From Ustilago trichophora (lineage: Eukaryota > Basidiomycota > Ustilaginomycetes > Ustilaginales > Ustilaginaceae): 64,000 bases of DNA. The stretch lies in contig OOIN01000014.1 in NCBI GenBank assembly GCA_900323505.1, positions 186,001 through 250,000 on the forward strand, read 5' to 3'. Made by a program: the position numbers and the translations under genes. The notes under the pieces are model-generated. The model was not told the origin of the DNA. It made no database searches and worked only from the letters and a program-made list of their open reading frames with translations. Positions 6,679 to 37,533 of the stretch are shown here, piece by piece; the stretch's first letter is position 1; every line of letters begins with the position of its first letter.

Positions 6679-6877
6679 ATTTGCACCTCGACCAACAGGC
6701 ATCACGCTTATAACAGGCTCACTAGGTAGTACGCCATCCTTGCCTTTCCACCTTGTTCACATCTCGATGCCCAATGTAAATTGCAACAAATCCTCACAAA
6801 CTCAACACTATCCCATTCGCAGCATTCAATCAATGACAACAACAAATCCAGAATACATACATTGCACAGCAGCAGCA

Positions 6878-7212
6878 TCACCAACTTTTGTGGATCACCA
6901 TGTCCTCCGCATGCGACTTGGGGCTTGCGGGATGTGCTGCCACATGTCGGCGCAGCTCGTGGCGATCCAGCAGCGCTGCTACATTCCTGACGGACGATTG
7001 GTGATGGTAGCGCCAGAGAAGATGCGAGGCGGCAATCTTGATCTCGGGTTCCGAAGCATCAAACAGCAGCCACCATGGTGCCGGTTCAAGAGGCAGATTC
7101 ACCTGCGGCACGCACATCTCTGCAGCGAGCGCGATCGCAGCGCAGGCCACAATATGTGGTCCAAAAATGCAAAGCACCGGTGTTTGCAGACTGCCGAAGA
7201 GTCGTAGGGGCC

Positions 7213-7243
<31 letters not shown>

Positions 7244-8052
7244 ACGTGAGAAAAGAGGATAAGTGTCAGCGTCTTGCGAGCTGATTTTCAGTGGGCTGCT
7301 GCTTGATGGCGAGGTGTGAAAGAAAAAGAAAGCACTTACGCATCGTTGAGGAACGACCAGGCACACTGTGCTAGCGTCACAGGCTGCGACGAAGCTTTAT
7401 CGATGGGCGGCGGCGTCGCGTTTTCAGGAGACCAACAGAAATGTGGCTTAACGGTGACTTTGAGATTGCTATCCGTGAGTCCGAGAGCTTGCAAGTAGTT
7501 GACCAAGAGTGCATATGGCAGCGTCACCTGTACGTGAAAACCGAGTCGCTTGAGAATCTGCATCTCGGACACAACCACAGCATCACGGAGACGACTCAAC
7601 TCTGCCGAGTCGTACGCTGGAGCACAGTAAGGTGGAGCTAGAGAATCTGCTGAGGACGCCAGAGACACGTTGGATCTGTCCTCCCTGCTGGAAGGGGTCC
7701 AATCGGGTGAAAGATGGCGATTCTTTGAGATATGATAGTCGACGTAGTGAAAGGCGTTGATCAAGTGTCGAAGGCGGATCTGGGTCTCTTCGAGCTTGGT
7801 GGCTAAGAGCAGAGCGCCCATTGCAATTTCGCTGGCAGAGAAATCGCACATGGATGAGGTGAACCAGAAACGCTGGAAGAATACTTGAGCCACCGCCATG
7901 GTCCTCTGCGGCAATCTTAAAAGGATGCCGACCTGTTGAATGATCTGACAGCCGAGGGCCCTGAGCTCCATCTCGAGATCGTAACTGAGTCCATCGGTCA
8001 TGGACGGAGTGACGGCCAACTGCTGGCGCGTAGCAAGCGGATTGAGAAGCAT
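6878..8052 (-). CDS. Cyclin L-like transcription/splicing cyclin
   Basis: Cyclin of the L family, which pairs with CDK11-type kinases and links transcription to pre-mRNA splicing. Two exons: 8052-7340 and 7190-6878. The intron at 7339-7191 has a GTAAGT donor and a CGGCAG acceptor, and the join restores the conserved WSFLNDALQTPV stretch (compare WNYMNDSLRT in animal cyclin L). Product about 341 residues. The N-terminal cyclin box starts at TPSMTDGL, followed by LGCQIIQQVGILLRLPQ, MAVAQVFFQRF and ATKLEET. The second box contains PETIACA-like GPHIVACAAIALAA. There is no RS-rich tail. The start is uncertain: the frame is open for over 100 bases upstream of 8052 without an ATG, so an extra 5' exon is possible. 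A 28-base A run at 7213-7240 (poly-T in the transcript) forms the polypyrimidine tract. Confidence 0.85.
7213..7240. repeat. 28-base homopolymer A run inside the cyclin L intron
   Basis: An uninterrupted A run on the + strand, poly-T on the sense strand of the cyclin gene. It ends 22 bases before the intron's AG acceptor at 7191, so it serves as or overlaps the polypyrimidine tract. Its length is likely to vary between strains and sequencing runs. Confidence 0.9.
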
Positions 8053-9336
8053 CTTGAGGACGTATAGATCAGCCGATTCGCTCCGAGGGGCCCAAGAGGG
8101 ATTATTGACCCAGCATGGCTGTATTGAGCTGCTTGAGAGACGTCTCGTTGGACTATCTTGAGTTTGAAGAGTGATGGCTAGGGTTGCGATGAAAGCAAAG
8201 CAAAGTGCAACAACACAGAGCCAAAAGTGGAGGAAGACCGGCGGACCTTTCTTTGAGAATTTGTCAGATTTATTGGAACGTACAAATTCGAGCCAAAATT
8301 CTTAGCTAGACTTAGGCACGCGTCCTCTTTTTCTTTTCTTTTTTTTTCTTCTTCTTTTTTTATTTTTTTTCTTTTTTCTTTTTTCCTTCTTTTGGACGCT
8401 CGTGTGAAAGGTGGCCGAGCTGCACCTTTCAACTTTTGAAATTTGTGTGTTTCGTTCGAAATTGGCGCCTAAAGCAACAGCGAGTGTGAGAGAGAGTAAC
8501 ACAGAGTCTGAGTGTTGGGGTGTGAAATTCAAGACGAGGTAGTTAGAATGCATGCAGCTGAACAAGGCAAAGGGTCTTGTTGATTGATCTGCTCAGCTCA
8601 CAATCTCTGTACTGTACTCTTCTGCTAGTTTAGCCTCGCTCGGCAACTCCGCGCTGTGAATCAACGACACTCTGCCCTTCCCGAAGCGCTGATTGATGTG
8701 ACCGACCATCTCTTTACTGTACTTGATCCTCTGTCTTGTGTCAACAACACTCGTACTCACCACCATCACGTTGCCAATAGCTGCGCTGTCATTTGTATCA
8801 TATCAACGAGATCCCTTGCCACATTCAAGATCCTCGTCAACCCAGCCCTCCTCACCACACGAATCCATAAGCAGCCTCTGATCGGGTTCACTGGCTTGAC
8901 AAACACAGTCGACTCGTATCTCCAAGCGTCTCTCCTCCAGAGTCAATACGAGACAGGATCAGACAAGCGTTCGCATCGTCATCTTTTTCAAAATAAAGTG
9001 TGTCTTTTCGTTGAACAGCATACATACAACATCTTGTGGTCAAGGCTCCTCCGATCGATGCTCTCGACCATGTTTCTGCAACGCTAGATTAGGCTACCTA
9101 CAACGACACTTGGCGGCTGCGCATCGTGGCATCGACAACTAGACTTCTATCGGTTCCGAGCCAGGTACAAGCAATCCAAGCCAACCTGTTTCGGTTTCTA
9201 GAGCTTGCAACAGATCTCTGCTTGATACGCCACCCTTTCTCCCGCGAACAGTAGCAGCAGCTTTTACAATCCATCGGCCCAACGTTGCACTCTATACGAA
9301 AAGACAAGTTCAAATCTCGCAGAGAGTCTTGGCAAC
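8053..9336. promoter_or_regulatory. Divergent intergenic region, cyclin L and J-protein
   Basis: Nearly 1.3 kb between divergent genes. It contains a long T/C-rich run at about 8327-8395 and TACTGTAC-type motifs at 8608-8617 and 8717-8724. A 143-codon open stretch at 8656-9087 lacks recognisable domains and an ATG at its beginning; I read it as 5' UTR or promoter of the J-protein gene. Confidence 0.5.
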
Positions 9337-27178: not shown

Positions 27179-30100
27179 ATGCAGGACATTGCGCAATCAC
27201 ACGAGGCCCTTGCGTTTCCAACCAGCGGGCCCGACCACATTCCAGACGATGAGGTTGCCGCCACCCAGCAGTCCATTTTAGAAGAACTGCATACAATCAG
27301 CGAGGAGGCTCTCCCTCATCACCTCAGCCATCATTATCCCGCCACAGACGATTGCAATCAGCAAGAGCCGATCCTGGCCGACGTAGCTATGCACTCCGAA
27401 CCGTCGGGCGCTTCCCTCGACCATGCTGAGGAGCCACATGTCTCCGATAGCGAGCCTGCAAGTCCAGAGGACCAGAAAATCCCAGCATACCCCCTCCCTG
27501 AAGGCGAAGAAATCCCAACGTTACCTACATTGGATGCGAAAGAGGCCTTCCTGCCGACTCAAGTTGCAAATATCGCAGCAGCCAATGCTGAGGCAGTCCC
27601 GATAGACTCGATAGCGGCAGTGGAAGCCGTCGACGTTCTGGCAGAGCCAAGTGCGCCAGACGCAGATAACACAGCCGCGACCGCCGAGAAAGAGGCAGTA
27701 GCGACGCCTGTTGTTGCGACAGAAGTATGTGCAGACGCGGCGTTGATCGCATATCCTCATGTCGGTACGGTGGCGAACAGTTTCGAGTCGTTGTCACCCG
27801 GGCTTGCCGGCGCCGCGCAACAATCAGATGGCATGTCCTTGGCGCAATCCTGCGCAATAGCATCGGACCTCCTTGATCCTGGCGATATGAAGATGGAGGT
27901 CGAGGCGGAAGCTGATCTTGACCATACCGACCTGTTCGACGGCATAGACGCAGATGCCTTTGATGATATCGAGCTCAGCCCACCCATCTGCAGACAAGCT
28001 TTCTTGCCTCCATTGGACGATGCTGCTAACATCAACCAAAGCCAGGCACCAGCATCGCCGACCCGGATTAAAAGCCCCAAAACTTCGCAGAATGCGACCG
28101 GTCTAGAGCTCTCCTTGAATGAAGACGACGTTATGGGACCAGAGCCGCCAGAAGCACCCCAAGGTAGCCAGATGTCGTCGTTTCTCGCGCCTTCCTTTGT
28201 CGGCTTCAGAACCGGACGCGGAAAGCAAGTCAAGCCCAGCGAGAAGGCTCTTGAAGCCGCACGCAAACGCATGCTCGAGCTCGAGGCATCTCAAGACCTG
28301 CTACCGCCTCTACTAGCTTCTCAATTTGCATTCCAGCCAGCATCTCAACCTGCATCACAGCTTCACCCCCCCGCATTTGACTCGCCTTCACGGGTGCCTC
28401 AGCCGACCTCGAATGGAAGTGCAGCCAAGCCGACGCTTGACAGAGCGCCCATGCATGAGATTGCCCCACCACAGAGCAGCGTCTCGATTGCAGATCAGGT
28501 GTATTCACCTCTGTCAAACAGCAAGCCTGCTCCGGCGCAGCCAGCGACAGCAGTACAAGTGACGCCAGCCAGACAAGTGCAGCGTCAGCCATTTGCGACG
28601 CCAAAACCAGTACATAGCGCACTCTTCTACAGCAGTCAGAGTCTGGCGAGTCCGATGCGCACTCTCGCTGCTGCTTCTGGCTCACGCTTCACCACTCCGC
28701 AACCTGGCAAGCGCATTTCGCTCGGAATGATGCCAAGAGTCGAGATCGGTGGCAGCACAGGCAGAAAGAGGTCAATGCCCAAGTTTGTCACGCCATTCAA
28801 GAGCGGCAAGCGGCCCCGAGCCGAAGAGCAGGAGGATCCCACATCGCCATTACGTAGGCTGAACAACGGCGGTCCGGAATTGTCCGAACCAAGCCCCGTT
28901 TTGTATCGTCACTATCCACCTACTTCTTCTAGCAAGGCGCAAGCAAGCACCAGCTCAGAAGGCCCCGCTGTTTTCATCATGCAGTCCGCTGGGCCACGTC
29001 AGAAGTTGTCAGACGTTGGCAGACCAGAGTACTATTCGACACTACAAATGATTGCCAAAGGCGTCCCTGACGAAATCGCAGTCATCCTCAAGGACGCCTC
29101 TCGAGCAGCACAATATGCTTTCGAAGCTCCCAACAACGGACTGTTGATGCAGGAGCAAGCTCTAGACGAGCTACTTGTCCGAGGTTGCTCGAATGCAAAG
29201 CTGTCATGGGTGCAGAACCATTGGACGCTCATTCTATGGAAACTTGCTGCGGTGGTGCGCTTCGAGCCGAGCAGTGCACGCGAGCGTTGGAGCTGGGATG
29301 AGGTTATCCATCAGCTGCTATACCGCTACGAGCGTGAGGTGCATCTTGCGCAGCGGTCATGCATCAAGCGGATTCAGGAACACGACTCTTCATCAGCGAG
29401 ACCAATGGTCTTGTTTGTGTCCAAGATTTCTGAGGAAGAAAACGAGGTTCAAGACAGAGCCGGTACCGTCTTCACGCGTCGAAGCACGATTCTGGAGCTG
29501 TCAGATGGATGGTACCGCATTCAAGCCCAGATCGATCCTGTTCTGACAAGAGCTTGTCAGCGGGGCCGTCTCCGCATCGGTCAAAAGCTCGCCATTATGG
29601 GCGCAAGACTAGATACACAAGGCGACGGCCGCGAAGTGCTGACCGCGTACCACATGTCTAGCCTTGTCCTGGCCTCCAACTCCGTGTCGCTCGCTCCTTG
29701 GGATGCCAAGCTCGGCTTTGCATCCTCTCCCTTCTTTGCCAGCTTGCGCAGCCTTACGTCCGAAGGTGGCGTGGTCTCGCTCATGGATGTGATCATCACC
29801 CGGGTCTACCCAATTGCGTATATGGACGTTGAACACGCCTCCAGGGCCGGCGGCCAGCATCGTGGGGAAGACGAAGAAGCCGAACAGCTCGAAGCCTGGA
29901 CCAAGAAACGAGAAGATGCCATGGCACGTCTCGAGCTAGAAATGGAGACTGAAAATCGAAAGATGTACGATCTCGTTGAAGCGCTAGGCGATCTGATGGG
30001 CGATTCATTCTTGCCTTCCATACCAGACGATCCCAGTGGCAGACTCGAAGCTATGGCGAATACCTTGTTCGAACAGCTCCGTGCGCAGGCCAACCCGGCA

Positions 30101-30562
30101 TCAGCGGTACACGAGATGGTCGTCGCAGCCGGACACACGAGTCTGGTACCCTGGCTGCAAAACATCGCCAAAAGAGCATTGCTCGCAGAGGACGGACTCG
30201 GCAGCAGCTCCGGGTTGATCGCTGCATTGGACAGGCTCTGTCCACCTCGTAAAGTGCGCGAGTTCCGAGTGGTCAGTTTCAGAGATGCCCGACTTCCACC
30301 TCCGCCTTCCACGCCGACCGCAGCAGCAGCAATTGCAAACGCGAGCGCGGGTGCAGGAGGCAAGAAAAAGAATCCGCACGCCCGCACAGTTCATCTCACC
30401 GTCTATGATGCAGCCCAGCTAGGCGATGAGTTGCAAGAAGGTCGCCGATTCTGGGTGACCAATTTGATGCCAACATCCAAGTCGTCGTGGAGAGGACCGG
30501 ATGATGATGCAGTGGTGTCTTTGTCGACGAGACGGGATACAAAGTGGCGAGTCGTGTCCTGA
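27179..30562 (+). CDS. brh2: BRCA2-family recombination mediator (Brh2)
   Basis: Mediator that loads Rad51 on RPA-coated single-stranded DNA in homologous recombination. Single exon, 1127 residues. The N-terminal ~330 residues are acidic, Pro/Ala-rich and probably disordered. One BRC motif sits at about residues 340-366: FVGFRTGRGKQVKPSEKALE, matching the FxTxxGKxVxxSExAL pattern; the usual FxTA is FRTG here. I see only one BRC, as known for Ustilago Brh2. A basic segment (TGRKRSMPKFVTPFKSGKRPR) precedes the C-terminal DNA-binding region: the helical domain (residues ~640-720, ALDELLVRGCSNAKLSWVQNHWTLILWKLAA, WSWDEVIHQLLYRYEREV) and OB folds (LELSDGWYRIQAQIDPVLTRA, LRIGQKLAIMGARL), where Dss1 binds in this family. 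A second DNA-binding site beyond the OB folds cannot be read by eye. No frameshifts are seen. Confidence 0.93.
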   Translation: MQDIAQSHEALAFPTSGPDHIPDDEVAATQQSILEELHTISEEALPHHLSHHYPATDDCNQQEPILADVAMHSEPSGASLDHAEEPHVSDSEPASPEDQKIPAYPLPEGEEIPTLPTLDAKEAFLPTQVANIAAANAEAVPIDSIAAVEAVDVLAEPSAPDADNTAATAEKEAVATPVVATEVCADAALIAYPHVGTVANSFESLSPGLAGAAQQSDGMSLAQSCAIASDLLDPGDMKMEVEAEADLDHTDLFDGIDADAFDDIELSPPICRQAFLPPLDDAANINQSQAPASPTRIKSPKTSQNATGLELSLNEDDVMGPEPPEAPQGSQMSSFLAPSFVGFRTGRGKQVKPSEKALEAARKRMLELEASQDLLPPLLASQFAFQPASQPASQLHPPAFDSPSRVPQPTSNGSAAKPTLDRAPMHEIAPPQSSVSIADQVYSPLSNSKPAPAQPATAVQVTPARQVQRQPFATPKPVHSALFYSSQSLASPMRTLAAASGSRFTTPQPGKRISLGMMPRVEIGGSTGRKRSMPKFVTPFKSGKRPRAEEQEDPTSPLRRLNNGGPELSEPSPVLYRHYPPTSSSKAQASTSSEGPAVFIMQSAGPRQKLSDVGRPEYYSTLQMIAKGVPDEIAVILKDASRAAQYAFEAPNNGLLMQEQALDELLVRGCSNAKLSWVQNHWTLILWKLAAVVRFEPSSARERWSWDEVIHQLLYRYEREVHLAQRSCIKRIQEHDSSSARPMVLFVSKISEEENEVQDRAGTVFTRRSTILELSDGWYRIQAQIDPVLTRACQRGRLRIGQKLAIMGARLDTQGDGREVLTAYHMSSLVLASNSVSLAPWDAKLGFASSPFFASLRSLTSEGGVVSLMDVIITRVYPIAYMDVEHASRAGGQHRGEDEEAEQLEAWTKKREDAMARLELEMETENRKMYDLVEALGDLMGDSFLPSIPDDPSGRLEAMANTLFEQLRAQANPASAVHEMVVAAGHTSLVPWLQNIAKRALLAEDGLGSSSGLIAALDRLCPPRKVREFRVVSFRDARLPPPPSTPTAAAAIANASAGAGGKKKNPHARTVHLTVYDAAQLGDELQEGRRFWVTNLMPTSKSSWRGPDDDAVVSLSTRRDTKWRVVS

Positions 30563-30849
30563 GATCGCGCTGGTGGGTGTTGGTTTGCGGCTCGAGACTC
30601 TCTTTGCGGTTGATCTCTGACCGTTAATGTATTCTATCTTACAGCCTGTCGTTTTATCCGCACGTGCAATCGTCTAAGCATTCAGTCGCACTCACACAGA
30701 TACGGTACAGTGTTATTTTCTGCAAGAGACTGCAATCATAACTGAGGGGAGCCACAGCACCATCTATACATGTATGAGTCTACAAAATGGAGAGAAAATT
30801 ACTTCTCTTATGATCATCATCCAAGCCTTAATGGTGACGAGTAGGAGCG

Positions 30850-32032
30850 TTATGCATCGGCAAGGGGAATAGTGACGTCGTCGAAATAATCATGATTCAT
30901 CTTGGAGGGAGGTTCTTGTCCTGCGGGGGCACCGACGAGGAGCCAGGATGCATGGCTTCCAGAACCGGAGCCTGCGAGAGGTGTGTGGAGTTGGCCTTGG
31001 GGGGTTTGAGGGGTTTGAGGAGTCTGAGGAGTCTCGGCCTTTTGGACTGGGGTTTGCGGTGCTCCATTGACTCCAATTCCGGGTCCTTTTCCTCCTGGAC
31101 CAGGACCGTCACCCACTCCAGATCCAACGCCACCGCCAACACCAGTCCCAGCGCCGCTTCCGGCACCGGCTCCCGAACCACCGCCAGCGCCACCGCCAGT
31201 ACCAGAATCAGAGCCCGTCCCGGAGGCAGTCCCGGAGTCAGAACCCGCACCAGCCCCTGAGCCATTTCCAGCACCAGTTTCAGCACCACCCTTCATACCA
31301 TCTCCACCATTACCATCAGCGCCACCAGCGCCCTTACCATCCGTTCTACCCTTGCCTTCCGCCTTTGGAGCTTTTTTCTTCCCCGATCTAGCCCCAATAA
31401 CGGCATAAGGCAAAGGCTGACCTTCCTTCTCGGGGCAAGCATGCAAAACCTTGGGCATGTAATCTTTTGGGCCGATGATTTGCTCTACGCTATCGGCGAA
31501 TCTTGCCAGCAAATGTCCCTTATCTTTGCTTACCCGATTGACATAGCTCATAAAGACGCAACCCGGCTTTTTGTCAAAATCGAGCTCGACACAGCAGCCT
31601 CCGTAGCAGGTGCGGAAGGGGTGCCCATAATATGCTTGGCGCTCGAATAGGAAACCTCCCTCTGAACGACGACAACGTAGTGAAAAGAGAGAAATGTGGG
31701 TTGTGTTGAATTTCAATAGTTGGAAACTTTGGGAGAAGAGGGAGAGAGGACTTACGATTGTCAGTGGCGTTCACAACGGAAGCCATCACGGTACCTGGCT
31801 CAACCTGATCGACGTAGATGCAGTAATTCTGGGGATTGGTACAGAGTTGGGAGAAGACTGTGGGCGGATATGATTTGACCGCCGGTGGCGGCTGTTGTTG
31901 GCCTTCAGCAGGCGGAGTTTCTGGAGTAGTCCCCGGGTCAGGGGCTAGATTCGCTGCTCCTGCCGGCTGGACATCTTCGCAAGAAACTCGTAGCGATACG
32001 GCCAGTAAGACGAAAAACAGAATGAGAAACAT
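30850..32032 (-). CDS. Predicted secreted protein with Cys-containing core and Gly/Ser/Ala-rich tail
   Basis: Unrecognised protein, about 362 residues. Exons 32032-31756 and 31661-30850 flank a 94-base intron (GTAAGT at 31755, TTCAG at 31662); the join runs NATDN-QGGFLFERQAYYG. The first ~20 residues (MFLILFFVLLAVSLRVSC) form a clear signal peptide. A Pro-rich linker follows. The conserved-looking core has about seven cysteines (QLCTNPQNYCIYVD, FRTCYGGCCVELDFDKKPGC, HACPEKEG). Then come a Lys-rich patch, about 100 residues of Gly/Ser/Ala/Thr repeats and a PQTPQTPQTPQ run, ending NHDYFDDVTIPLADA. There is no GPI or membrane signal at the end. It may be a cell-wall or host-facing secreted protein; that is inference. 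The repeats make copy number prone to variation. It ends 287 bases from the convergent brh2 gene. Confidence 0.75.
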
Positions 32033-32656
32033 GGTGTTGGCCCGCGGAAAAGACCGTTCTAGCCTCCTTGAGAACGAGGCTCAGGCAAGGCAAGTTTTCT
32101 GCCACAAGAGGGGGGAGGGAAGGGGGGAGAGGATGTTATATGGTCTGCGAGGGAGGGAGGTTGGAAGAGATGGATGATGCTAAGGGGAAGAAAAGGAAGC
32201 AGTGCGATGCAATGCGAAGAAATAGGGCCAAAGGCGTGCGGCTTGGCGACTTCATGAGGCTTTCACATCAAGGGGCCACAGCACAGGGGGTGGTACAGCA
32301 CGACGCATGGCTTCGAACGTCCCACAATAGTGTCCCTCAAAGCAGAGACAATGCCAGGATGATCTTTGCTTGCGGTTAGCACAAAGAATGGTGGGAACGT
32401 CGTATCGGGTGGGGGTTTTCAGGGCAAAGAGTAAGGAAGAGCATCCTTACAACTCGGGATTACCGATGATCGAAAGACAAAGTGCAGCTCAGTGTGGTAT
32501 TGTGATTGATGCAAGATGAGTTTTGCGACATGTGACTTCTCGAAGGAAGATGGAAAAGATGAAGCGGCTACTGTTAGTGTCACCAACCGCCGAATCGGGG
32601 TTGGGACGCTGGTATCATGGTAAGCGAGCCCACCCTGGCCTGAAAATCAAGGGACT
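32033..32656. other. Region between the secreted protein and the retrotransposon
   Basis: About 620 bases: promoter and leader of the secreted-protein gene (-), then the left flank of the retrotransposon. Purine-rich; no gene is supported. Confidence 0.5.
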
Positions 32657-32768
32657 TCCCAGCTCATGCTTACGCGGCCGAGAGAGACACAGGGAAGGGG
32701 AGGCATACACGGTCATAGTATTGCGGGTCAGCAACGAAGTCTGCTGGCTCAGAGGCTCCCAGCCCGCC
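32657..32768 (-). repeat. Split direct repeat B2 (element 3' end)
   Basis: 112-base copy of B1 at the outer 3' end of the element. It is separated from A2 by 68 bases (32769-32836) that are not part of either repeat. Confidence 0.9.
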
Positions 32769-32836
32769 GTAGGGGCCGGTCGAGCGCAGAGAAGAGCGGA
32801 ACATACAGGCGGAACGCAAGGGAGGGATCGGGCGGG

Positions 32837-32979
32837 TGACAAAGAAGAGGCGAGTGCGTGCTCACCACAGCGCTCGCCAAAGGAAAGATGATGGAGGAAA
32901 GAGAGAAGAGAGAGAGAGACGAGAGACCTGGCTGTGGGCGCATAAGCGAGCTCAGATGAACACGCCGTCACGTGATGCA
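32837..32979 (-). repeat. Split direct repeat A2
   Basis: 143-base copy of A1, directly abutting B1. It also carries the TCACGTGA palindrome, at 32968-32975. The A2/B1 junction reproduces the joint of the two element ends. Confidence 0.92.
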
Positions 32980-33091
32980 TCCCAGCTCATGCTTACGCGG
33001 CCAAGAGAGACACAGGGAAGGGGAGGCATACACGGTCATAGTATTGCGGGTCAGCAACGAAGTCTGCTGGCTCAGAGGCTCCCAGCCCGCC
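32980..33091 (-). repeat. Split direct repeat B1
   Basis: 112 bases matching B2 (32657-32768) with a single difference that I can see (A at 33003 against G at 32680). It overlaps the 3' end of the long RT reading frame. Confidence 0.92.
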
Positions 33092-36000
33092 AATCGAGCG
33101 TCGAGGCGCCTGCGCAGCAGGAAGCGGTGTCGACGGGGCTGGGGCCAAGGGCGAGACTCTAAACGGCACCAACATCGCGCCAGGAGGTGCTGTCTGGCAC
33201 AAGGGGACCGTCGCGGACGGCAAAGAGGGCGGAAACAGAGAGGTCGCGGCGTTCTGTGGCTGAACGGTCAACGTAGCGCCTGAAACAGTCAGAGTTCCAA
33301 CGGCCAAGACACTGGATCGTGTCTGGGCTGGCGCCGAGGCGCGCAGCCCACGTGGCCGCGCTGCGCCTGAACGAGTGGCCGGCGTAAGCGGCAGGTTCCA
33401 AGCCGGCCCAGGCGATAGCCCGTCGGAGAGTGGCCACGAAGGCCGAGCGGGTGAGGGGCTCGGTGCCTGAGCGTCCGAGGCCGAACAGTGGTGCCGAGGC
33501 TGCGCGCTTGGCGGTGAGAACACGTAGTCTTTCGACAGGGCACTCCGGCCCGCCGACGAGGGGTGCAACAACTTTGACACCGAGGCGGAACGGGTCGGTC
33601 TTCGACGCAGGCAGGGTGACGATGGCGTGATCCGCCGCCAGCTCCACGCTGGCGACGCGCAAGATGGTGCCGGGGTCGGACAAGCGGTCCCAGACGACTT
33701 CCCCAGATCGCAGGAAGCAGGCAAAGGAGAGGGTGAAGGCGGCGCCAAAGACCGCACGATCCCAGGTTGAGAGGTCGGCGAAGGTGTCGAGGGCGAGGAC
33801 AAGGCGTCGAAGTAAAGGGAGGGTGATGGGGAGCTTGGCCCCTGTGCGCCGGGCTCCGTGGATTCGCTTGTAGCCGCGGAGGGCCCGTTCAAGGCGACCA
33901 CATTCGAAACCGTGGAGGGAAAGGCCGAGGTCGATGTGGTGGGAGCGGAGGTGACCAAGCTCGTGCTTGGCGGAGTGGTAGGAGCGTCCAGCGGTGGACA
34001 TGCTGCCAAGCCATTCGAGCAGGTGGAGGCCAGAGGCTGGAAAACAGGCGACGCTGGGTCCAAACCGGAAGGCACAGAAGGTGCGGTATGCAGTGATGGT
34101 GCTGCCAGCACGGTCTCGAGTACTGGCCGCCAAGCCGTTCCAGAGGAGTGTGGCCGCCGACGCAGAGATGCCCAAGCTGGGTGCGAAGGAGAGAGGGGGG
34201 TGGGCGGCTGGTCTGCGGGTGCCTGCTGGGAGAACAACAGCCGGTGAGCTGGTGGGAAGGACTGGCGGATGCGGGCAAACTGGCGGCGAGAAAGGAGATC
34301 AGCCAAGACATTGTCAGTAGACGTAACTCGGACTGGGTGGAGAGTGAGGTTGTGCACGAAACAAAGCCCAAAGATCTCGCGAATGAGGCGCTGTGTCAGT
34401 GGATCGCGCGAGCTGCCAGAGCGAAGACCATGCTCCACATTCTCGTTGTCCACGTGGATCACCACAGTGGTAGGAGAGGTCCAGTAAGGAAGGAAGCGGC
34501 GAAGTGCCTCCAGCACCGCTAGAGCCTCCAGGAAGCAAATGTTCTTCCCGCGGTGTCTGCGAGGCACTTCCTTTGAGAACGCGGCTGTGGGGTTGTGGGC
34601 GAGGCCAAGGTGAGCGCCGTACCCTCGAGGACAGGCGTCGGTCCACACGTGGGCCACGCGGAGAGGAGAGGGAGCAAGGATGCAGGTGCCGTGCCAAGTG
34701 TCGAGCACGGCGACCCACCAAGCGAGCTCGGCTAGAGCAGGGCGAGGGATGCGGCGGCGGCCAGACGTTCTGGCGCGACGAGTGCAGTCGTACAGGCGAC
34801 GAAGGAAGGCCTTTCCACAGGGGAAAACCTGAGCCACAAACTGGAGAAGTCCTGCGATGCGCTGCATGTCAAGCAAATCAGCTGTCCCGCGGCTGAGCAG
34901 TGTGCGGCATTGAGCGAGAATGTGGGCGCGGCGTTCCGGTGTGATGCCGACCGTCTGGGCGGCCGAATCAATGTCAATGCCGAGGATTTCGAGCCGCGTG
35001 AGGTCGGCAAAGGTCTTTTTGGGAGAGAGGCGAAGGCCCAGTGCAGCAGCAGCGAGGGCGAGGACTCGAACGGGCAGCAGCGCCAGCGCTGGTGCCTCGG
35101 CGGGAACGGCTCCAAACGTGTCGTCCAGGTAGTGGTTGACTGGCCACGATTGGGGTAGACAGGATGCCACCACCCAATGGAGGAACTCCGCTACCAAGTT
35201 GAACAAGAATGGGGAGCTGCTACCACCAAAGGTGAGGGCGTTCTCGCGGTACCGCGTGCCGTTGTACTGGAAGCCGAGCAGACGAGCATCAGACTCCGCT
35301 GTGACCACATGGCGAAAGGCGTCTTCGAGATCGCCTTTCCAGAGGCGACAGTGAGGGTTCGCGCGCACGAAATCGACTAAGTTTCCAATGGTCTCGTATT
35401 GAATGCGTACCACTGCAGGGTCGATGCCACTGTTGACAGAAGGGAGGGTGGTGCTAGCCGGACGACGAGGGTGAGACAAGTGGTGGATGGTACGGAGCTT
35501 GGACGAGCGAGGCTTGGGTACAACTCCAATGGGGGACTCAACGAGAGGCTGGTCGTGCCCTACGATGGTGAGGCGGCCTTCTTCCAGGCGTGCTGCAATC
35601 TCACGGCGTAAGTGGGCATGTCCAGCGTCGTCAATCGGCAGGTTGGAAGCAGGGCGGTTACTGCCTCGCAATGGCCCATTGTAGCCGAGCAGGCAACCGT
35701 GCTCGATCATGCCTGCCACCTGCGAGCGAAAGCGCTCGTCCGGGTAGTCTTGGAGGAGACGGCGCCACGCGTGCAATTGCGTCTGCATGGAGCCAATGCG
35801 AGCTGGGGAAGAGTCTGGGTCGAAGACGTCGCGAGCCAGAGTGGTGTTGGGGCGAGGGGGTGGGGAGTGCTGGCGTAGCGCCAAGAGGAGCGAAAGGCAC
35901 CGGTCAGCTGAAGGAACGTCGAGAGCTGCCGGGACCAAAGTGAGGAGCCGAGCCTGAGTCTGCTGCGGAGACGGAGAAGGTGAAGGGCCAACGTGGCCAA

Positions 36001-36169
36001 GCTGAGCCTGAGTCCGCTGCAGGGACGAGTGTTGAAGAGGGGCGACGAAGCCTTGCTGAGCCTGAGTCTGCTGCAGAGACGAGAACATTGGGGACCGGGC
36101 TTGAGTCTGCCGCGGAGACGAGCCCACGTGGTCGAGTGGGCGGGAAGGCCGAAGAATGGGACTCACCAT
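32993..36169 (-). CDS. Reverse transcriptase-RNase H polyprotein of the Ngaro-like element
   Basis: Long frame from ATG 36169 (context GCCGCCATGG, five bases after the Gag-frame TAG), about 1058 residues to the stop at 32993. The RT domain lies at roughly residues 215-420: LWKGDLEDAFRHV, LTFGGSSSPFLFN, the catalytic YLDD in NHYLDDTFGAVP (~346), and LGLRLSPKKTF. The RNase H domain follows at ~520-640: HVWTDACPRGYGAHLG, FLEALAVLEAL, VIHVDNENVEHG, with acidic D-E-D residues in place, then STDNVLADLLSR. After about residue 665 the sequence is Ser/Pro/Ala-rich without domain character, and from 34175 it runs over the recombinase gene in another frame; the true C-terminus may be shorter. The frame is also open upstream to an ATG at 36211. 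Confidence 0.88.
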   Translation of the reverse strand: MVSPILRPSRPLDHVGSSPRQTQARSPMFSSLQQTQAQQGFVAPLQHSSLQRTQAQLGHVGPSPSPSPQQTQARLLTLVPAALDVPSADRCLSLLLALRQHSPPPRPNTTLARDVFDPDSSPARIGSMQTQLHAWRRLLQDYPDERFRSQVAGMIEHGCLLGYNGPLRGSNRPASNLPIDDAGHAHLRREIAARLEEGRLTIVGHDQPLVESPIGVVPKPRSSKLRTIHHLSHPRRPASTTLPSVNSGIDPAVVRIQYETIGNLVDFVRANPHCRLWKGDLEDAFRHVVTAESDARLLGFQYNGTRYRENALTFGGSSSPFLFNLVAEFLHWVVASCLPQSWPVNHYLDDTFGAVPAEAPALALLPVRVLALAAAALGLRLSPKKTFADLTRLEILGIDIDSAAQTVGITPERRAHILAQCRTLLSRGTADLLDMQRIAGLLQFVAQVFPCGKAFLRRLYDCTRRARTSGRRRIPRPALAELAWWVAVLDTWHGTCILAPSPLRVAHVWTDACPRGYGAHLGLAHNPTAAFSKEVPRRHRGKNICFLEALAVLEALRRFLPYWTSPTTVVIHVDNENVEHGLRSGSSRDPLTQRLIREIFGLCFVHNLTLHPVRVTSTDNVLADLLSRRQFARIRQSFPPAHRLLFSQQAPADQPPTPLSPSHPAWASLRRRPHSSGTAWRPVLETVLAAPSLHTAPSVPSGLDPASPVFQPLASTCSNGLAACPPLDAPTTPPSTSLVTSAPTTSTSAFPSTVSNVVALNGPSAATSESTEPGAQGPSSPSPSLYFDALSSPSTPSPTSQPGIVRSLAPPSPSPLPASCDLGKSSGTACPTPAPSCASPAWSWRRITPSSPCLRRRPTRSASVSKLLHPSSAGRSALSKDYVFSPPSAQPRHHCSASDAQAPSPSPARPSWPLSDGLSPGPAWNLPLTPATRSGAARPRGLRASAPAQTRSSVLAVGTLTVSGATLTVQPQNAATSLFPPSLPSATVPLCQTAPPGAMLVPFRVSPLAPAPSTPLPAAQAPRRSIGGLGASEPADFVADPQYYDRVCLPFPVSLLAA
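33159..34175 (-). CDS. Tyrosine recombinase of the Ngaro-like element
   Basis: 338-residue phage-integrase-type recombinase that would insert the circular DNA intermediate. An N-terminal SAM-like DNA-binding region (STITAYRTFCAFRFG, SYHSAKHELGHLRSHH) precedes the catalytic domain. Catalytic residues visible: Arg in FACFLRSGEVVWD (~154), the H-x-x-R pair in YAGHSFRRSAATWAARLG (~265), the Trp in CLGRWNSD taking the place of the second His, and the Tyr nucleophile in FRRYVDRSA (~300). The gene lies wholly within the 3' part of the RT frame, in a different frame on the same strand. Its own ATG at 34175 is the simplest start, but a frameshift from RT is possible. The R-HxxR-W-Y set is intact. Confidence 0.9.
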   Translation of the reverse strand: MGISASAATLLWNGLAASTRDRAGSTITAYRTFCAFRFGPSVACFPASGLHLLEWLGSMSTAGRSYHSAKHELGHLRSHHIDLGLSLHGFECGRLERALRGYKRIHGARRTGAKLPITLPLLRRLVLALDTFADLSTWDRAVFGAAFTLSFACFLRSGEVVWDRLSDPGTILRVASVELAADHAIVTLPASKTDPFRLGVKVVAPLVGGPECPVERLRVLTAKRAASAPLFGLGRSGTEPLTRSAFVATLRRAIAWAGLEPAAYAGHSFRRSAATWAARLGASPDTIQCLGRWNSDCFRRYVDRSATERRDLSVSALFAVRDGPLVPDSTSWRDVGAV

Positions 36170-36174
36170 GGCGG

Positions 36175-36330
36175 CTAGGCCAATTTCTTGATGGCTGGAG
36201 GTTCTGGGCACGAGTGGACGACGTGATTGGCCTTACAACGGATGCAGATGTGTGCGCGGGTGCACTTGGGGTCCGAGCAGCCGCCAGAGTTAAACCGGAA
36301 GCAGACTTGGCCAGCGGTCTCGGCGCGCGG
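36175..36330 (-). other. In-frame Gag zinc-finger extension after a TGA stop
   Basis: Directly after the Gag TGA the same frame stays open to TAG 36177-36175. It encodes a CCCH-type pattern (C-x7-C-x4-C-x3-H) followed by a knuckle-like C-x2-C-x3-H-x4-C. Nucleic-acid-binding fingers at this place are typical of Gag proteins in related elements, so the stretch looks like the true Gag C-terminus cut off by the stop. I give the positions only and do not infer a repaired product. Confidence 0.65.
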
Positions 36331-37371
36331 TCATTTCTGGCCCGCAGCAGGCGTAGCGGCAGGCTGGTTGGGTTGGCTGCCGGACTTAACGGCCGAGGGC
36401 TTGCTGGAGGGGGCTGGGCGTCGAGGAACGCCACCTATGTCTTTTTGCCACGCGGCAATGTCTTGCTCGACCCAATCGCTGGCGGATGCGTGCCCAAAAC
36501 GACGCTGGCAGACGGTGAGGACGTACTCTGCCACCGTGGACCAGTAGTACTGAGTGTCGAGGTCGATGATGTGCACGAGAAAGGCGTTGAGGCTAGCAGC
36601 AAGGTGAGGGTTGTTCTCGCTGGTGCAACGGAGGGCGGCATAGACTGCCCAGGCCTGGGCGAAGCTGCGTGCGTCTGGGATCAGGCGCAGGAAGGAACGC
36701 GAAGAGGCGTCGGCTGAGGAGGGGGCTGGGACGCTAACGCGGACGCCGTTGACAACGACACGAAGCTCACGCTCTGGCTCGCTGTTGGCGGTGTTGTGGG
36801 CGGGATTGCGGAGCTTGCCAAGCTCGTGAGGCGGAAGGCGGTCGTCGTAGACTTGCTGGGCGAGCTCGCGCGAGATCCAAGGGAAGAGGCGGCGGAGTTG
36901 CAACTCACCGGAGGAGGGGGAGATCGCTGAAGCTGCTGGGAGCGAGGGAACAGCTGCTGGCTGGGCTAGGTCTCGACGCAACGAGAGGACGAGCTGACGG
37001 ATTTCTGCCACTGATTCAGCGAGCTGGGTGATGGTGTCGGCTTGCTCGTCAAGGCGCGAGTGGGCTGAGGTGTCGAGTGCGCTGGGAGGAGGTAGCGCAG
37101 AAGCGTCCCCGATCGAGGGCACCGCCAAAGTGGGTTGGACAGGTGCCTGTGCTGAAGCTGGAGGCGTTGTCGGAGGGGCAGGAGCCGGTGCTTCCGAGGG
37201 TAACGAAGGCGCTGAGAGTGTCGCGGGAGCTGGGGTGGCGACGGAGGGGAGGGGTGCTGGGGCTGTTCGGCGACAGGCTGCGCAGCGAGTGCAGCGTCTA
37301 CCGCCTACGCCGACGTAGTGGTTGTGTGGGAAAGAGCGGAGGCAGGCGGAACAGGTCCGATCGCCAGGCAT
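36331..37371 (-). CDS. Retrotransposon Gag-like protein
   Basis: Predicted 346 residues from the ATG at 37371 (MPGDRTCSACL...); the frame is open further into the A1 repeat, to 37497, but that part is low-complexity. An N-terminal four-cysteine zinc-ribbon-like module (CSACLRSF...CTRCAAC) is followed by a Pro/Ala-rich linker, a short coiled-coil-like region (LDEQADTITQLAESVAEIRQLV) and a capsid-like region (residues ~205-300: FPWISRELAQQVYDDRLPPHE, SFAQAWAVYAALRCTSENNPHLA, TVAEYVLTVCQRRFGH). The frame stops at TGA 36333-36331. The same frame continues beyond it to TAG at 36175 and encodes CCCH and CCHC-like zinc fingers, so this Gag is either shortened by a nonsense change or read through. 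No domain name beyond Gag-like is claimed. Confidence 0.75.
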   Translation of the reverse strand: MPGDRTCSACLRSFPHNHYVGVGGRRCTRCAACRRTAPAPLPSVATPAPATLSAPSLPSEAPAPAPPTTPPASAQAPVQPTLAVPSIGDASALPPPSALDTSAHSRLDEQADTITQLAESVAEIRQLVLSLRRDLAQPAAVPSLPAASAISPSSGELQLRRLFPWISRELAQQVYDDRLPPHELGKLRNPAHNTANSEPERELRVVVNGVRVSVPAPSSADASSRSFLRLIPDARSFAQAWAVYAALRCTSENNPHLAASLNAFLVHIIDLDTQYYWSTVAEYVLTVCQRRFGHASASDWVEQDIAAWQKDIGGVPRRPAPSSKPSAVKSGSQPNQPAATPAAGQK

Positions 37372-37390
37372 GTCGGGGAGGAAAGCTCGT

Positions 37391-37533
37391 TGACAAAGAA
37401 GAGGCGAGTGCGTGCTCACCACAGCGCTCGCCAAAGGAAAGATGATGGAGGAAAGAGAGAAGAGAGAGAGAGACGAGAGACCTGGCTGTGGGCGCATAAG
37501 CGAGCTCAGATGAACACGCCGTCACGTGATGCA
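37391..37533 (-). repeat. Split direct repeat A1 (element 5' end)
   Basis: 143 bases that by eye match A2 (32837-32979) at every position. It carries a GA/TC tract and, next to its outer end, the palindrome TCACGTGA (37522-37529). It probably contains the element's promoter. Confidence 0.92.

Follow-up and report, generated by a model that had tools for sequence, protein, structure and literature searches.

A probable Ngaro-type tyrosine-recombinase retrotransposon in the smut fungus Ustilago trichophora, with a conserved pair of splice-donor-like hexamers

A split-repeat tyrosine-recombinase (YR) retrotransposon occupies positions 32657-37533, minus strand, of the window (the whole 64,000-nt stretch of Ustilago trichophora DNA analysed here). 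With a probability of about 0.88, the element is of the Ngaro type and is the sole full-length copy of its family found in the U. trichophora assembly. The host belongs to the Ustilaginaceae in Ustilaginomycotina, a subphylum reported as lacking Ngaro in the available passages of a fungal YR survey (PMC3783388). A recurrent pair of GTGAGT hexamers in the smut copies hints at a possible, undescribed way of making the recombinase.

Layout and coding content

From 37533 down to 32657 the order is A1-gag-RT/RNaseH-YR-B1-A2-B2, with the following features:

37391..37533, minus strand: repeat A1, outer 5' end of the element, identical to A2 at 143/143 positions
36331..37371, minus strand: Gag frame, opening at ATG 37371 and interrupted by an in-frame TGA at 36333-36331 (frame reading)
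36175..36330, minus strand: zinc-finger segment of Gag past the TGA, frame unchanged, ending at TAG 36177-36175 (continuous in 15 other copies)
34262..36169, minus strand: RT-RNase H from ATG 36169, with YLDD at 35131-35120 and the RNase H motif LADLLSRR at 34306-34283 (ORF, Pfam, motifs)
33159..34172, minus strand: tyrosine recombinase, counted from the conserved start; RT -1 frame, no ATG before that start (Pfam, alignments, structure comparison)
33273..33710, minus strand: YR residues R 33710-33708, K 33602-33600, H 33377-33375, R 33368-33366, W 33299-33297 and Y 33275-33273
32980..33091, minus strand: repeat B1, inner, 111/112 identical to B2
32837..32979, minus strand: repeat A2, inner, abutting B1 (repeat comparison, junction read)
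32657..32768, minus strand: repeat B2, outer 3' end of the element (repeat comparison)

Split direct repeats in the order A1-ORFs-B1-A2-B2 are an Ngaro trait and are present in the window element. The preliminary description had reported A1 and A2 as identical and B1 and B2 as differing once, and the same counts were obtained here (0 mismatches in 143 nt and 1 in 112 nt). Its reading of the inner junction also holds, since B1 and A2 meet at ...GGGA|TGCA..., the sequence that joining the two outer element ends would give. No inverted repeat joining the element ends, as in the terminal repeats of DIRS1-like elements, is among the inverted repeats listed for the window. The GC content of the element is 0.631 and that of the remainder of the window 0.522.

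All three enzymatic domains exceed their Pfam cut-offs (RVT_1, 35 vs 29.6 bits; RT_RNaseH, 25.6 vs 24.8; Phage_integrase, 28.7 vs 27.1), and YR retains the catalytic set R, K, HxxR, W and Y. The best structural match to the predicted YR model, among the matches listed, is Cre, with the model itself at middling confidence (pLDDT 64). Domains, motif coordinates and structural match together bear out the earlier assignment of an RT-RNase H with YLDD and a recombinase with Arg, HxxR, Trp and Tyr. The gap from the end of the RNase H motif (34283) to the conserved YR start (34172) is 110 nt and holds no methyltransferase (MT) domain, as in Ngaro elements. No match links the RT-frame tail to the C-terminal regions of proteins P0100 and P0101, which we take to be MT; Pfam detects no MT in these two proteins either, and its silence on MT is thus uninformative. 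In the N-terminal RT frame, window positions 35930-36120 contain direct repeats at 54-nt spacing, including a 26-nt unit present four times at spacings of 54, 54 and 39.

The in-frame TGA at 36333-36331 truncates Gag of the window copy upstream of the zinc finger, a segment that is part of an uninterrupted gag frame in all 15 other copies tabulated. Barring a bypass of the stop or a supply of Gag in trans, the window copy would therefore make Gag without a zinc finger, and on account of this truncation it is probably not autonomous. The full set of intact frames of an autonomous, active element is not found here, and the earlier view of a complete, possibly active element was overstated in this respect. 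Elsewhere in the genome, the gag stop and the RT start overlap as TAATG in three copies (L029, L031 and L040), which suggests that RT may be translated by stop-start reinitiation.

Kinship, distribution and insertion site

A profile built from the RTs of seven U. trichophora lineages scores 378-395 bits on proteins of the tremellomycetes Cryptococcus floricola and Cutaneotrichosporon and 296-310 bits on those of the Agaricomycotina Panaeolus and Trametes. Two proteins that we take to be DIRS-type score 66-76 bits, and two elements of the same genome score 13 and 3, these being labelled LTR-type from their top RT_RNaseH_2 scores and, for L042, also from an integrase-like stretch seen by eye. 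The RT is not closest to LTR elements and does not group with them, an outcome that would have counted against the Ngaro-like assignment of the preliminary description. In both RT trees, which were built without labelled Repbase Ngaro, PAT or VIPER sequences, the window element lies among basidiomycete RT-RH-YR proteins and the smut rows form one clade (15 rows at 100/99; 14 rows at 80/99). The sub-lineages of this clade mix species: with 76% identity, the nearest row to the window element belongs to Ustilago sp. UG-2017a, whereas L028 is paired with Sporisorium scitamineum, and L035 and L040 fall with Melanopsichium and U. esculenta. Phage_integrase matches below the Pfam curated cut-off occur in three Panaeolus proteins and the Cutaneotrichosporon protein. 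An Ngaro-like RT with a weak Phage_integrase match was also observed in the tremellomycete proteins P0137 (C. floricola) and P0152 (Cutaneotrichosporon sp.); the fungal survey, as far as its available text goes, gives Tremellomycetes as without Ngaro (PMC3783388).

The RT relatives listed number 101, of which 88 are smut-named, the window's own protein included. They represent 13 smut taxa: U. trichophora, U. hordei, U. nuda, U. tritici, U. bromivora, U. esculenta and two further Ustilago sp.; Sporisorium scitamineum, S. graminicola and S. reilianum; Melanopsichium pennsylvanicum; and Pseudozyma flocculosa. U. maydis does not appear among the RT matches listed (101, 120 and 120 rows). In the parts of it that were available, the 2013 survey records Ngaro as absent from Ustilaginomycetes and places the entry of Ngaro into basidiomycetes after the split of Ustilaginomycotina, or assumes a loss there (PMC3783388). 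No report of Ngaro in smuts is among the matches listed in the open-licence literature, as far as their available text goes, and among three further papers (PMC10684912, PMC12210899, PMC6679389) the one on Tilletia caries gives, in its accessible passages, only a lumped Gypsy/DIRS1 class. A diversified smut Ngaro clade with lineages common to several species favours an older origin.

Within the U. trichophora assembly, the next-best matches to the window family have 68-69% identity over 2.9 kb, next to a single full-length match. A YR search of the genome returned 46 matches, 40 of which cover at least 314 residues; as 35 of these 40 are without a stop, the relatives are mostly not degenerate, in keeping with the earlier claim of an intact type of element. 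Both repeat pairs were found in 15 of 20 further loci with 9.9 kb read per locus, the exceptions being L025, L033 and L035 (neither pair) and L034 and L037 (B pair only). At L027, about 1.4 kb (oriented positions 6798-8207) separates B1 from A2, which abut in the other copies with a junction read, and this interval is perhaps a nested insertion.

A diverged counterpart of the left flank of the window element lies on contig C14 (76% and 70% identity). At this locus, L041, alignment with the left flank reaches the insertion point and alignment with the right flank resumes 48 nt past it; when joined, the two flanks give a single 731-nt alignment at 72% identity, which identifies an empty site; by eye, GGGACT is followed immediately by right-flank-like sequence. 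The window locus thus provides a filled/empty pair for an Ngaro insertion inside one assembly. No flank bases are duplicated at the filled site, as in Ngaro insertions. Because the diverged C14 copy holds the empty site, the insertion would postdate the divergence of the two locus copies, unless the element was precisely excised on C14. The near-identity of the repeats suggests that the insertion is much younger than this divergence. The model of reverse transcription, as given in the available part of PMC6681497, implies near-identical repeats at insertion. The recent insertion proposed in the preliminary description is therefore retained relative to the divergence of the second locus.

The second flank copy pairs window positions 30000-32656 with C14:225700-226500, at 70-76% identity on a different contig, and the assembly measures 38.8 Mb against 20.7 Mb for other U. 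trichophora assemblies, a roughly twofold difference. In the one region compared, this suggests two diverged subgenomes, a hybrid or a mixed culture.

In the 18 copies for which one or both ends were read, the window copy among them, the flanks all differ. A T follows the B2 end in 10 of 18 (p 0.005), and target microhomology averages 1.125 over 16 copies (chance P 0.046). Insertion of DIRS1-like elements is described, in the accessible text of PMC3266345, as involving a 3-bp identity with the target; such a match is unnecessary here, with total microhomology being 0 in 6 of 16 copies and at least 3 in 2 of 16.

Splice-donor-like hexamers and the out-of-frame recombinase

Four further features of the window copy concern the production of YR:

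36903..36908, minus strand: D1, splice-donor-like hexamer GTGAGT inside gag, gag phase 1 (equivalent place in 21/21 copies)
36161..36166, minus strand: D2, GTGAGT at the gag stop/RT start, directly after the RT ATG (20/21 copies)
34280..34283, minus strand: hypothetical splice acceptor CCAG before YR, exon start 34279 (CTRAY/YAG scan, weak control)
32993..34261, minus strand: RT frame continued open through the YR gene into B1 (ORF list, stop-codon test)

Relative to RT, YR is read in the -1 frame in 20 of 21 copies, L024 being frameshifted, and the first ATG of the YR frame falls within the conserved YR region in all 21. With no ATG ahead of its conserved start in this -1 frame, YR must be expressed through splicing, frameshifting or reinitiation. 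Measured from the gag stop, D1 is at -713 to -758 nt in 21/21 copies, constantly in gag phase 1. Gly-Glu is conserved at this site, and so are the codons GGT and GAG and the T that opens the next codon (Leu, Ser or Tyr), with a joint chance of 2.7e-8 over seven lineages, given the codon usage of each element and if the lineages are independent. D2 lies +2 to +22 nt from the gag stop in 20/21 copies, the stop of the window copy being taken as the TAG at 36177, and is missing there from L040; the hexamer sits in differing frames between lineages, and protein coding is therefore no explanation for it. The sense strands of seven representatives (39,808 nt) contain 17 GTGAGT, 13 of which are D1 or D2 sites, and the antisense strands contain 11. 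An eighth lineage, L044 (3,101 nt, fresh test data), has exactly two, at -770 and +7 of the gag stop, although with an RT about 80% identical to that of L035 and L040 it is not a fully independent lineage.

The RT frame of the window copy is open to 32993 and spans the entire YR gene. Downstream of RNase H it is free of stops through YR in 17 of 20 copies (L025 left out), with one stop each in L029 and L036 and two in the frameshifted L024, and all seven lineages have at least one copy in which it is open throughout; in L044, an RT-frame stop falls some 118 nt into YR, and YR of the same copy also has a stop. Seven representatives, all chosen from copies without a stop, together have 0 RT-frame stops across YR vs 17.5 expected from a synonymous codon shuffle of YR. 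The significance in single lineages is P 0.001 or less for L040 and about 0.02 to 0.16 for the other six. At equal relative frame, the same shuffle expects 67 stops in RT genes (53 observed), 41 in gag (36 observed) and 225 in eleven host ORFs (200 observed), and its overestimate of host-gene stops is strong in the +2 frame and also affects 2 of the 11 host ORFs in the +1 frame; the null thus appears somewhat high, yet too little so to explain the lack of RT-frame stops across YR. A functional RT-frame tail was considered and set aside, as the identical-codon rate in YR (0.457, expected 0.416) has an excess no larger than that in RT (0.441, expected 0.390), and by this measure the tail shows no added constraint on its amino acids. 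Tail similarity is above shuffles in 19 of 21 pairs, with z up to 3.4 between distant lineages, and weak constraint may exist. The open frame might give relief from nonsense-mediated decay.

The conserved donor hexamers speak for splicing, and our best guess is a join of D1 in gag to an acceptor upstream of YR, as the simplest form; such spliced mRNAs may yield YR. With the first YAG downstream of the last pre-YR CTRAY as acceptor, D1 and YR would share one frame in 21/21 copies and in L044, where this YAG is the only one; the predicted D1-YR fusions are 513-631 aa long in 20 copies, and that of L025, a copy with a stop, is 400 aa. The in-frame fit is weak support for the acceptor, as in a control the first YAG after CTRAY within RT genes has a YR-compatible phase in 23 of 32 cases. 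A D2-to-YR join in one common phase fails between lineages. The gene model UTRI_03968 (exons 37371-36523, 36202-34262 and 34175-33162), under which public databases list the window's protein for U. trichophora, was also rejected, as its first intron deletes the TGA together with the zinc finger and its second uses a GT that is unconserved between lineages.

A retrovirus-like plan would accommodate these features: unspliced RNA would yield Gag and RT-RNase H, RNA spliced from D1 or D2 would yield YR, most simply as a fusion of the Gag N-terminus to YR, and the RT frame would be stop-free through YR, letting ribosomes on unspliced RNA terminate close to its 3' end. This plan is tentative and has appreciably less than an even chance of being correct. 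Production of YR by -1 frameshifting or reinitiation in the RT-YR overlap, with GTGAGT serving elsewhere, for example in U1 binding that blocks early polyadenylation, comes only somewhat short of even odds: it draws on the -1 position of YR in 20/21 copies and on the statement, in the available passages of PMC3783388, that YR can be frameshifted. Against it, the 21 copies contain a single X-XXY-YYZ slippery heptamer before YR (in L027) and none that is shared, and the hexamers are conserved at the nucleotide level beyond the protein. The conserved donor pair makes production of the out-of-frame recombinase a simple RNA question. To our knowledge, splicing-based expression control has not been described in a tyrosine-recombinase retrotransposon. 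The conserved GTGAGT pair is also absent from the Ngaro descriptions found in the literature search, as far as their accessible text goes.

Proposed cycle, alternatives and known systems

From the observed parts, repeat geometry, catalytic residues, empty site and kinship with basidiomycete RT-RH-YR proteins, we infer the circle, the strand exchange and the expression route of a cycle in which element RNA would yield Gag and RT-RNase H. RT would then copy the RNA and rebuild the split ends via the inner A2/B1 pair, giving a circular cDNA with a B|A joint, and the Cre-like recombinase would insert this circle without target duplication.

A dead relic, its structure conserved by chance or by recent duplication of the region, would fit the in-frame TGA in Gag and the one full-length family match in the assembly, but this is unlikely given the near-identical repeats, the open RT and YR frames and the empty site; the repeat structure is beyond chance, as both pairs recur in 15 of the 20 further loci and an empty site exists. 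That foreign DNA or an artefact of assembly, and not insertion into a smut chromosome, accounts for the element is highly improbable. The raised GC content of the element and the doubled size of the assembly point in that direction, whereas both flanks run on without a break in an 884-kb contig and can be aligned to the empty site, and the relatives carry the names of 12 other smut taxa. The type assignment itself has a competitor in a PAT-like or VIPER-like element without an MT domain, since split direct repeats are common to Ngaro, PAT-like and VIPER-like elements (PMC6681497, PMC4157794) and an MT-less PAT lineage is described from a nematode (PMC4157794), both according to the available parts of these sources. 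This competitor is quite improbable, as the RT has its place among RT-RH-YR proteins of Agaricomycotina and tremellomycetes and lies far from the pair labelled DIRS-type, and the survey, in its accessible text, found Ngaro alone in Agaricomycotina (PMC3783388). An Ngaro-type element is thus the preferred reading.

PAT-like and VIPER-like elements share the split direct repeats in the order A1, B1-A2-B2, as far as the available descriptions go, but PAT-like elements usually carry MT and VIPER elements are known from kinetoplastids, a separation drawn here from the descriptions. DIRS1-like elements likewise combine RT-RNase H and YR without target duplication, and about half of them have long ORF overlaps according to the available text of PMC3266345; they differ in having inverted terminal repeats and an MT domain, where the window element has direct split repeats, and in being described there as needing a 3-bp target match, which the smut copies with no microhomology lack. 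Solved structures of Cre recombinase share the fold and the HxxR...W...Y stretch with the YR model, at 14-16% identity in the best 19 matches, whereas the window YR belongs to a retrotransposon. The Ngaro elements of Agaricomycotina and Pucciniomycotina, as described in the available passages of PMC3783388, have the same A-ORFs-B-A-B repeats, RT-RNase H and YR and the same lack of a DDE integrase, and RT relatives of the window element occur in Panaeolus and Trametes. The window element differs from them in coming from a subphylum reported as Ngaro-free, in its conserved GTGAGT pair and in the long overlap of the RT frame through YR, where Ngaro elements usually have no ORF overlaps (PMC3266345, in its accessible part). 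If the retrovirus-like plan is correct, smut Ngaro elements would be YR retrotransposons with splicing-based, retrovirus-like control of expression.
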